Source of the DNA: Archaeoglobaceae archaeon
GTDB taxonomy: Archaea; Halobacteriota; Archaeoglobi; Archaeoglobales; Archaeoglobaceae
Assembly (NCBI GenBank): GCA_026986375.1
Contig: JALSOQ010000009.1
Coordinates: 1-64,000, forward strand
Direction: 5' to 3'
DNA length: 64,000 nucleotides
The position numbers were made by a program, and so were the translations under genes. Under the pieces are notes generated by a model. The model searched no databases. It was given only the letters and a program-made list of their open reading frames with translations, and was not told the origin of the DNA. Numbering within the stretch: position 1 is the first letter of the stretch; the number at the start of each line of letters is the position of its first letter. Positions 37,893 to 48,620 of this stretch are shown piece by piece.

Positions 37893-38088
37893 GAATTATT
37901 ATTTAAAAATATAATGTTAAAAATTAATCGAGAAGTTCGTTTCAGTCTCGGTCAAATTTGCTCCTATAGTGCTTACCTACCAACGGTATGATTTTATTGT
38001 TACAATTTTTTCGAAACGCTTATATGGGTTCGTCAGGATTATCATCATTGACGATATAGAAAAAAATAGAAAACAATATATATGCTGT

Positions 38089-38115
38089 CGTTAATGACGG
38101 TATTGGATACGGAGT
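38089..38115 (+). promoter_or_regulatory. Conserved 27-bp element upstream of sat
   Basis: The element contains GGTATTGGATACGGAGT and begins CGTTAATGAC. It is 24/27 identical to 47248-47274 upstream of tauE. It lies 17-43 nt before the sat ATG and just downstream of A/T-rich TATA-like sequence (CAATATATATGC, 38075-38086; or GATATAG, 38053-38059). It may be an operator or a 5' UTR element shared by sulfate-reduction genes. Confidence 0.65.
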
Positions 38116-38131
38116 CGTTGGAGGTGGAAAG

Positions 38132-39502
38132 ATGGGCAAATTGAGGATGCCTCCACCGCACGGTGGAGAGCTGGTTTATAGAGTTATAGAAAAGAAGGAC
38201 TACGCCGAGAGCATGGCCGCAGGTGCCATAGAGTTCGAACTCAAAGCCACGACCGATCCGAAGGGCGTTCCGATAAGGCACGTTTACAGAGAGATAGTTT
38301 CCGTCTGCTACGGTTTCTTCAGCCCCGTTGAGGGTTCGATGACTCAGAACGAGCTTGAGAGCGTTCTGAACGAGAGGAGGCTTGAAAGCGGGTGGGTATT
38401 CCCATATCCGATTCTGCTCGACGTGAGCGATGAGGATCTGAAGGCTCTCGACGTTAAAGAGGGCGACAGGCTGTTGTTAAAGCTCAAGGGACAGCCGTTC
38501 GCAGTGATGGATGTAGAGGAGATCTACAAGATCGATCCTAAGGACGTCGCCACGAGGACGTTCGGAACTCCGGAGAAGAACCCCGAAGTCGTAAGACAGC
38601 CGTTCGACGAGAAGCATCCGGGTTGGATGATATACAGGTGCATGAACCCGAACGTAATAGCCGGAAAGTGGACGATAATAAACCCGCCGAAGTTCAGGGA
38701 GCCATACGACAGGTTCTGGTTGCCTCCGGCTGAGTGCAGAACCGTTATCAAGCACGTGAAGAAGTGGAGGACTTGCATCGCTCACCAGACGAGGAACGTC
38801 CCGCATACGGGCCACGAGATGCTCATGAAGTGTGCCGCATACACCGGTGACATCGAGCCGTGCCACGGTATTCTCGTAAACGCCATCATAGGAGCTAAGA
38901 GGAGGGGAGACTACCCGAACGAGGCAATTTTGGAGGGGCACGAGGCCGTGAACAAATACGGATACATAAAGCCTTCAAGGCACATGGTGACGTTCACGCT
39001 CTGGGACATGAGATACGGTAACCCGATCGAGTCGTTGTTGCACGGAATAATAAGGCAGAACATGGGTTGCACCCACCACATGTTCGGAAGAGACCACGCC
39101 GCAGTGGGAGAATACTACGACAAATACGCCACCCAGATACTCTGGAGCGAAGGAATTCCGAGCTTCGGATTCGAAGCTCCGCCGAACGAGGTCGACAAGG
39201 GACTCAAGATAATACCGCAGAACATGGCCGAGTTCTGGTATTGTCCTGTATGTGGAGAGATTGCATACAGCGAGAACTGCGGACATGTGGATAAGAAGCA
39301 GAAGTTCAGCGGTTCCTTCCTGAGAGGAATGGTGGCAGAGGGTGTAATGCCGCCCAAAGTGGTCATGAGGCCGGAAGTTTACAAGGCTATCGTTAAGTGG
39401 TGGAAGGTCTTCGGTTACCCGTTCGTGAACAACAGGTATCTTGAGAACCTGAACAAGAACCTTGAAATCGATCTGGAGCCGATGGAAATACCTAAGGCGT
39501 GA
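38132..39502 (+). CDS. sat: ATP sulfurylase (sulfate adenylyltransferase)
   Basis: 456 residues. QTRNVPHTGHE carries the HxGH nucleotide-transferase motif (about residue 228-238). GRDHAAVGEYYDKYA is the second conserved loop. A zinc-site region near the C-terminus reads YCPVCGEIAYSENCGH. It makes APS from sulfate and ATP, the first step of dissimilatory sulfate reduction. GGAGGTGG precedes ATG 38132. First gene of the sat-unknown-aprBA-qmoABC run, behind a promoter with the shared 27-bp element. Confidence 0.97.
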   Translation: MGKLRMPPPHGGELVYRVIEKKDYAESMAAGAIEFELKATTDPKGVPIRHVYREIVSVCYGFFSPVEGSMTQNELESVLNERRLESGWVFPYPILLDVSDEDLKALDVKEGDRLLLKLKGQPFAVMDVEEIYKIDPKDVATRTFGTPEKNPEVVRQPFDEKHPGWMIYRCMNPNVIAGKWTIINPPKFREPYDRFWLPPAECRTVIKHVKKWRTCIAHQTRNVPHTGHEMLMKCAAYTGDIEPCHGILVNAIIGAKRRGDYPNEAILEGHEAVNKYGYIKPSRHMVTFTLWDMRYGNPIESLLHGIIRQNMGCTHHMFGRDHAAVGEYYDKYATQILWSEGIPSFGFEAPPNEVDKGLKIIPQNMAEFWYCPVCGEIAYSENCGHVDKKQKFSGSFLRGMVAEGVMPPKVVMRPEVYKAIVKWWKVFGYPFVNNRYLENLNKNLEIDLEPMEIPKA

Positions 39503-47163: not shown

Positions 47164-47247
47164 CTTTTTTCTGACTTCGAATAATTTTACATCTTTTTGA
47201 ATTACAAAATAAATGGCAAATCTTATATATTGTTATTATCGATTCGC

Positions 47248-47274
47248 CGTTAACGAAGGTATCGGATACGGAGT
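47248..47274 (+). promoter_or_regulatory. Conserved 27-bp element upstream of tauE
   Basis: The element begins CGTTAACGAA and contains GGTATCGGATACGGAGT. It is 24/27 identical to 38089-38115 upstream of sat. A TATA-like TCTTATATATTG (47221-47232) places the likely transcription start at its first bases, so it would lie in the 5' UTR or overlap the start site. Its 3' end is 32 nt before the tauE start codon. Confidence 0.65.
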
Positions 47275-47306
47275 AAAATTCGGAGTTAACGTGGGGAGGT
47301 GACTCC

Positions 47307-48191
47307 ATGGACTGGTGGTTTTGGCCCGTGTTTCTGTTCGTGTTCACGTTGCTGATCGGAATAATATCGCCAGTGTCCGGCGTGGGAGGAGGAGTCCTTT
47401 ACGTTCCACTGGCGACGGTGCTTACGCCGTTCAACGTCGACTTCATAAGAGGCGCGGGACTGATCATGGCAGTAGTTTCGGCACTCTCCTCGGTTCCCTA
47501 CCTGCTCAGGAAAGGATTGGCCAACATAAGGCTCTTCGCAGTAATAGCGCCTATAATGGTCATTACGTCGGTCTTGGGTGGTATAGTGGGGCTTTGGGTT
47601 TCGAACGCTCTACCCAACGGAAAATACTACGTAAAACTGTTGCTCGGTATAATTATACTGCTCGTGTTCCTCATAATGATAACCTCGAAGAGAGTGGAGT
47701 TCCCGGAAGTGAGGGACGAAGATGTCGACCCGTGGTCGAGAAAGCTGGGAATAGTTGGGGAATGGTATGAACCGAGCTTAGACAGGATAGTTCAGTATAA
47801 GATTAAGAACCTGCCCGTGGGTATGATAATGTTCGGTGTAATAGGGTTCATCGCCGGTATGTTCGGACTTGGAGCCGGATGGGCCAACGTTCCTCTTCTC
47901 AACTTGGTCATGGGTGCGCCGATAAAGGTTGCCACAGCTACGAGCATGCTGATCATCACGGCAAACGCTCCGGCCATCGGAATATATCTCGCCAAGGGTG
48001 CGGTGCTTCCGGTGGTGGTAGTCCCGTCGATACTCGGCATAACAATCGGCGCAAGAATTGGAGCCAAAATAGCCGAAATCATAAGACCTGCCTTCGTCAG
48101 ATGGCTCGTGATAGGCGTTCTGTTCTTGGCGGGTGTTTTGAACATAATAAAGGGTCTCGAAGGTTTGGGCTACATACCTCACATAATCTGA
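47307..48191 (+). CDS. TauE/SafE-family anion exporter
   Basis: 294 residues, about eight membrane helices in two similar halves (GIISPVSGVGGGVLYVPLAT in the first, GFIAGMFGLGAGWANVPLLN in the second, the repeated GxxxGxGGG... signature). TauE/SafE proteins are proposed to export sulfite, sulfonates or other sulfur anions. Placement behind qmoABC, and a promoter element shared with sat, point to sulfate, sulfite or thiosulfate movement. GGGGAGGTGA precedes ATG 47307. Confidence 0.92.
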   Translation: MDWWFWPVFLFVFTLLIGIISPVSGVGGGVLYVPLATVLTPFNVDFIRGAGLIMAVVSALSSVPYLLRKGLANIRLFAVIAPIMVITSVLGGIVGLWVSNALPNGKYYVKLLLGIIILLVFLIMITSKRVEFPEVRDEDVDPWSRKLGIVGEWYEPSLDRIVQYKIKNLPVGMIMFGVIGFIAGMFGLGAGWANVPLLNLVMGAPIKVATATSMLIITANAPAIGIYLAKGAVLPVVVVPSILGITIGARIGAKIAEIIRPAFVRWLVIGVLFLAGVLNIIKGLEGLGYIPHII

Positions 48192-48201
48192 GGTGATGGC
48201 T

Positions 48202-48609
48202 ATGGAGGAGAGAAAGATAAGCGTCGATCCGATGGCGTTAGCGTTCGCAAAGGTGATGACGGTATTTACGATAATAGGCATTGCCGTAATGGTCGCCCCT
48301 TCGATACCCTACTTCATGGGCTACAATCAATACATCTCACTACAGATGGCCTCTAAATACTGGAACGAATCGACCGTTAACTTCTGGAAGCACGTTAAAG
48401 GGATAACCGTTCACGGATACGACTGGATATTCACGAATCTCGAATATACAGACTGTCAGAGCATGATAGGCGTCCTACTGCTGATGATCACACCACTGCT
48501 GAGCATGATAGCGGCGATTCCTAAAGCCGATCAGAAGGCTTTCAAGCTCCTCCTTCTGCTGGCGGCGATAGAGTTCGCTGTATCGATGATAGTCAAGGGA
48601 ATTCTATAA
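48202..48609 (+). CDS. DUF1634-like membrane protein
   Basis: 135 residues, three membrane helices (MTVFTIIGIAVMVAPSIPYF; MIGVLLLMITPLLSMIAAI; LLLLAAIEFAVSMIVKG). The GxLLLxxTP pattern in the second helix is typical of DUF1634 proteins, which often sit beside TauE/SafE exporters. Start ATG 48202, spaced from GAGGTGA exactly as at qmoC; upstream GTG/ATG codons overlap that site. Probably a subunit of the preceding exporter. Confidence 0.75.
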   Translation: MEERKISVDPMALAFAKVMTVFTIIGIAVMVAPSIPYFMGYNQYISLQMASKYWNESTVNFWKHVKGITVHGYDWIFTNLEYTDCQSMIGVLLLMITPLLSMIAAIPKADQKAFKLLLLLAAIEFAVSMIVKGIL

Positions 48610-48620
48610 AATAAATTTTT

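Follow-up and report, generated by a model that had tools for sequence, protein, structure and literature searches.

The window analysed here, a stretch of 64,000 nucleotides from an Archaeoglobaceae genome (G000; 1.46 Mb in 30 contigs, nearly complete), carries sat and, further along, a gene for a TauE-family transporter, each preceded by a TATA-like sequence and tandem 12-bp units. The relevant features, all on the plus strand, are as follows.

38009 to 38027, plus strand: putative distal promoter P1 of sat, the BRE-like block TTTCGAAA followed by the TATA box CTTATATGG; 14 of 19 positions invariant in five genomes
38065 to 38073, plus strand: BRE-like block AATAGAAAA of the putative proximal promoter P2; 18 of 22 positions between 38063 and 38084 invariant in five genomes
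38076 to 38083, plus strand: putative TATA box of P2, conserved and at a fixed spacing to unit 1; function presumed
38090 to 38101, plus strand: array unit 1, GTTAATGACGGT, predicted to cover -15 to -4
38102 to 38113, plus strand: array unit 2, ATTGGATACGGA, predicted to hold the transcription start
38114 to 38125, plus strand: degenerate unit 3, GTCGTTGGAGGT, overlapping the ribosome-binding site GGAGGTG at 38120 to 38126
38132 to 39502, plus strand: sat, sulfate adenylyltransferase (PF01747, PF14306, TIGR00339)
47223 to 47230, plus strand: TATA box upstream of TauE; the block from TATA to array is nearly invariant in five genomes
47233 to 47240, plus strand: second, weaker TATA-like sequence, TTATTATC, at a sat-like spacing to unit 1
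47249 to 47296, plus strand: TauE array of four 12-bp units, GTTAACGAAGGT ATCGGATACGGA GTAAAATTCGGA GTTAACGTGGGG (42.9 bits)
47307 to 48191, plus strand: TauE/SafE (TSUP) family membrane transporter (PF01925, E 2.4e-38)
48193 to 48609, plus strand: small membrane protein, encoded immediately after TauE and probably in the same transcript

An earlier note on this DNA had reported that 24 of 27 bases match between CGTTAATGACGGTATTGGATACGGAGT (38089–38115) and CGTTAACGAAGGTATCGGATACGGAGT (47248–47274), and a recount confirmed this, with mismatches at positions 7, 10 and 16. About 0.02 pairs as good as this are expected by chance in the whole window on both strands, and about 4e-5 within 60-nt upstream regions; the two copies match nothing else in the window, and 100 dinucleotide shuffles yielded no match. 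Both copies lie shortly upstream of a start codon (sat ATG 38132, TauE ATG 47307) and adjoin TATA-like sequence, as described. When the window was scanned with the profile without filtering, the sat copy scored 44.5 bits, the TauE copy 42.9 bits and the next best position 10.5 bits, which bears out the reported lack of a copy upstream of aprB, aprA and qmoA. The description of a 27-bp element did not hold: a single box of this length was rejected because the units run on past its end, and the conserved stretch extends from the BRE/TATA region through three to four tandem 12-bp units.

These units follow the approximate consensus RTnRAnnnCGGW, a partial dyad GT-N5-AC followed by GG, and between two and six of them make up an array across the sites found, as in the example upstream of a Usp gene in G003 (GTCAATAACGGT ATTAAATACGGA ATAAAGTTCGGA GTTAATTCCGGT). 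Pooled identity at lag 12 was 0.50 against roughly 0.25 at other lags, with lag 24 also raised, and 5000 shuffles yielded no identity above 0.37 at any lag; in the newly found sites alone, lag-12 identity was 0.53. The units are degenerate, with most information at T2, G10 and G11 (1.5–1.8 bits), followed by A5 and C9 (1.1 bits each), and next to none at positions 6–8. The first unit begins 6–8 bp after the TATA box, and this near-fixed spacing is kept in the sat, Usp, TauE2, TauEd and Cys-rich promoters, the exception being the TauE promoter of the window's genus, where the best TATA box lies about 12 bp further upstream. Most arrays are also preceded by an (A/T)nTAGAAA-like block. With the transcription start of archaeal promoters lying about 23 bp past the TATA box, unit 1 would occupy about -15 to -4 and the start would fall within unit 2, so the array probably spans the transcription start predicted from this geometry.

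The region upstream of sat was aligned across five genomes: G000, G002 and G003 from genus g1 (the genus of G000–G004) and G015 and G025 from g12, another Archaeoglobaceae genus. Invariant positions were concentrated in the BRE/TATA region (18/22) and units 1–2 (19/24), against 2/35 in the spacer between P1 and P2; at the position of unit 3, G025 reads GTTAAAGGAGGT. The array precedes every full-length sat copy found in g1 and g12 (5/5). No array was seen in the sat upstream regions compared from genera g4–g9, including g7 (G010, G021, G030), where sat has a single promoter, TTTCGAAAnnCTTATATA, near the start codon, often with TTAATC(A/G)T before it. Conservation upstream of sat, which the earlier note had proposed as a check, thus holds in five genomes of two genera and fails in the other Archaeoglobaceae genera. 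The P1 block is common to genera with and without the array; in the window it lies about 105 bp from the sat ATG, with the array-bearing P2 between it and the gene. These alignments suggest that sat has two putative promoters, a distal, family-wide P1 and a proximal P2 to which the array belongs. Since the array is absent upstream of sat in the other genera examined, it is a lineage-specific addition, which at this gene marks a small group of sulfate-reducing, heat-loving archaea in g1 and g12; counting all its target genes, the array occurs in a few related genera. The closest named relatives of the window's sat are Archaeoglobaceae metagenome assemblies. The G001 assembly, rated 99% complete, has no sat, yet retains the TauE site. 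Separately, TTAATC(A/G)TT occurs in several genera about 10–20 bp upstream of TTTCGAAAnnCTTATATA (L024–L043) and is a candidate control site for sat in its own right.

The TauE array is present in five g1 genomes, where the sequence from the TATA box through the third unit is identical save for a few positions. In g1, TauE and the small membrane protein gene lie between qmoC and a KaiC-like ATPase gene (window 47164–48620; L118); in G025 the KaiC-like gene directly follows qmoC, and the TauE pair looks inserted in the one lineage or lost from the other. The small membrane protein has no Pfam or NCBIfam match, and similar small ORFs follow TauE in G010, G015 and G008. The g7 TauE leaders of G010 and G021 (L057, L056) also show 12-bp periodicity, with different units (..CACGTT.., ..AACGTG..) and lag-12 identities of 0.39 and 0.48, hinting that unit sequence may drift between genera. 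The transporter had been called an exporter. This is a family label, and a survey of sulfate reducers found that the function of TSUP/TauE transporters, including the direction of transport, is not predictable from sequence (PMC5840216); the Archaeoglobus fulgidus homologue AF1562 was proposed to import sulfite (PMC3949148). In the same organism, expression of sat, apr and qmo is constantly high and depends only mildly on the electron donor (PMC3949148).

Profile searches were run on the whole of eight genomes, with 115–150 candidates scored per genome, so weaker sites may be missed. A first model (R1) was trained on sat and TauE sites only, and R2 and R3 were its successors. The best new matches to R1 were Usp promoters and further TauE promoters; R2 identified G000:C13:13180–13233 (E 8.5e-10), upstream of an operon in which the gene for a 68-aa Cys-rich protein is placed between two genes for Usp proteins; and R3 added the TauE (TauEd) and Usp promoters of G025. 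Among the candidates scored in G000, the only strong sites are those of sat, TauE and the Usp/Cys-rich/Usp operon. Across the eight genomes, 20 of 21 non-redundant scored sites at E<1e-3 stand upstream of sat, a TauE-family gene, a Usp gene or a gene for a small Cys-rich protein; several of the 21 are training rows or orthologues of these, and they are not a sample of independent sites. It is fair to state that every unlinked site newly found belonged to this one limited set of genes. The proposed shared control element linking sat to TauE is supported by its conservation upstream of both genes and by the small, coherent set of strong genome-wide sites, which suggests that one regulator may govern sat, sulfur-anion transporter and stress-protein genes.

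Several other matches and patterns were set aside. G015:C6:44576–44606 (L206, E 4.8e-5) is a partial match in an AT-rich stretch upstream of a Cdc6/Orc1-like gene with no matching downstream gene and is probably due to chance, and matches in G003:C6 and G001:C3 lie within coding repeats or genes. A simple core pattern with three mismatches allowed was unspecific (85 matches, versus 51 for the reversed control), and AATAGAAAA..TATAT, tried as a marker of the class, gave few matches in this genome, and these extended beyond the gene set.

The Cys-rich proteins form a family of about 68 aa with the core C-x2-C-(V/I)-x-(G/A)-x-C-P, found in g1, g6 and g7 (L277:1654–1860 and L202:1354–1560, minus strand; also L280, L377 and L378), and have no Pfam or NCBIfam match. 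In G000 and G003 the gene has a Usp gene on either side; in G000:C5 and G002:C11 it lies inside another operon. A protein search for this family followed by inspection of upstream regions revealed arrays at g7 copies in G010, G021 and G030, two of which are weak under R3 (E 0.13 and 1.7). No array was evident upstream of the g6 copies, nor, by eye, upstream of the g7 paralogues in G010:C8, G021:C68, G021:C46 and G030:C35.

We think it fairly probable that the array serves as an operator, positioned at the core promoter, most likely for an oligomerising repressor or a dual regulator. A dimer of this regulator would bind each 12-bp unit, with neighbouring dimers touching along the array, and an occupied array would keep RNA polymerase from being recruited to P2 or from escaping this promoter. 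P1 would keep supplying sat transcript, making the array a switchable output added on top, and one signal would shift sat, TauE and the Usp/Cys-rich genes together. Given the gene set, this signal is probably sulfur- or redox-related, either a sulfur compound or the redox state; the response to sulfate suggested in the earlier note is speculative.

The array could instead act in RNA: an oligomeric RNA-binding protein might recognise CGG/GGA repeats in the 5' leader, or a fold might hide the ribosome-binding site, and either would place control at translation. Units 2 onward would lie within the predicted leader, both sat and the G010 Cys-rich gene have a ribosome-binding site fused with unit 3, and sat transcripts from P1 would carry the whole array. 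However, unit 1 and its fixed spacing to the TATA box are conserved although this unit lies upstream of the predicted start and would be untranscribed from P2, no Rfam match was obtained at E<=1, folding z-scores in five leaders (-0.66 to +1.9) were no better than for shuffles, and possible hairpins were not retained across copies. The RNA element that the earlier note had offered as an alternative to a protein regulator is therefore unlikely. Constant coupling to BRE/TATA at a near-fixed spacing and restriction to related genera would also suit a shared variant of the core promoter or initiation region, copied between promoters and read by no specific regulator. A general promoter type of this kind would be expected at many unrelated genes, whereas the strong sites are limited to sat, TauE, Usp and Cys-rich genes, and we know of no core-promoter feature in which a 12-bp repeat continues well beyond the start site; we consider such a variant quite unlikely.

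One reading frame of the units gives a V/I-x-x-G repeat (for example VNEGIGYGVKFGVN), and the three mismatches of the original pair fall at third positions of this frame, as they would in a leader peptide or uORF; an in-frame ATG is also present in all five g1 TauE leaders (47213 in the window). Against this, 11 of 22 arrays, including all five sat copies, have no in-frame ATG, GTG or TTG, three of the 22 contain in-frame stops, close orthologues differ mainly by amino-acid-changing substitutions (counted by eye), and the frame in G002 is shifted relative to sat. A leader peptide is thus largely refuted, and we regard it as very improbable. The open frame at 47213–47302 (MxNxIYCYYRFAVN..), whose ATG is conserved in the five g1 genomes and which mostly ends at or near the TauE start, is probably incidental to the array and could be translated. 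It is just as hard to credit that a recent duplication gave rise to the sat and TauE copies, which were then kept by accident, with no shared control. The two copies do lie 9 kb apart in one sulfate-reduction cluster, and g1 alone seems to have gained TauE after qmoC (unless it was lost elsewhere), but several genomes carry the same array at unlinked Usp, TauE and Cys-rich genes, and it is conserved against diverged flanks.

An operator array with this distribution raises the possibility, which we put forward tentatively, of a regulon of archaeal sulfate reducers not described before, in which one oligomerising regulator would read a 12-bp phased array across the start of sat, TauE-family and Usp/Cys-rich transcription. 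Sulfate activation and sulfur-anion handling would then be switched as one, in the case of sat on top of a family-wide promoter. In the open-access literature, we found no regulator or operator described for archaeal dissimilatory sulfate reduction. An array that marks sat, sulfur-anion transporters and stress-protein operons would offer a concrete DNA bait for the regulator, and it suggests that an unstudied small Cys-rich family works in the same process as sat and TauE. The phased 12-bp geometry over the start site would be an unusual design for an archaeal operator.

The closest parallel is with the ribbon-helix-helix (RHH) regulators of archaeal viruses (SvtR, AvtR and F55), for which tandem or multiple sites overlap the start site and TATA box, and cooperative oligomers block the preinitiation complex (PMC5569661). 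Tandem repeats at the TATA box and start site are likewise present here, from about -15 on if the start is placed correctly. The arrays differ from the viral ones in sequence, in their 12-bp period and in preceding host genes. Many Archaeoglobaceae encode an RHH_1 protein of about 180 aa next to TauE, as in the TauEd clusters of G003 and G025; loci beside TauE are L323:2990–3544 (minus strand), L332:979–1605, L291:3085–3645 (minus strand) and L370:6110–6646 (minus strand). The TauE-adjacent RHH protein is an attractive candidate for the regulator but is not favoured, being widespread in genera without arrays and having no close form in most g1 genomes; no close RHH_1 copy was found in the array-bearing G000, G001, G002 and G004, and in G000 the family shows no link to the arrays.

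SurR of the Thermococcales, which recognises GTTn3AAC and GTTn3AACn5GTT, shares with the arrays an association with sulfur-related genes and a core-promoter position. Several units in relatives are an exact GTTn3AAC (GTTGAAAAC, GTTAAAAAC, GTTAATAAC), whereas the window units GTTAATGAC and GTTAACGAA lack this core. The long SurR form does not fit, as the next GTT follows after n3 rather than n5 and the array has a 12-bp period with units ending in CGG. G000 encodes a SurR/Phr-like protein (G000:C10:42070, L396) of 220 aa with an ArsR-like N-terminal wHTH, which matches the ArsR-family structure PDB 2p4w, presumably Phr, at E 1e-20 and SurR PF0095 (2qlz) at E 1.6e-8. In this protein, KKPC replaces the redox CxxC of SurR, leaving one Cys. 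A SurR-like N-terminal CxxC was found in none of six HTH_20 proteins inspected, a family of which the genome possibly holds more members, and HTH_20 proteins of similar size also occur in a genus without arrays. The SurR-like protein is a candidate that is not favoured as the regulator: it may not be specific to array genomes, its CxxC is incomplete and the unit spacing does not fit the long SurR site. Compared with ordinary Archaeoglobaceae BRE/TATA promoters such as P1, the array promoters share a BRE-like block directly upstream of the TATA box; P1 itself has TTTCGAAA and no repeat array, whereas P2-type promoters combine a TAGAAA-like block with the array.
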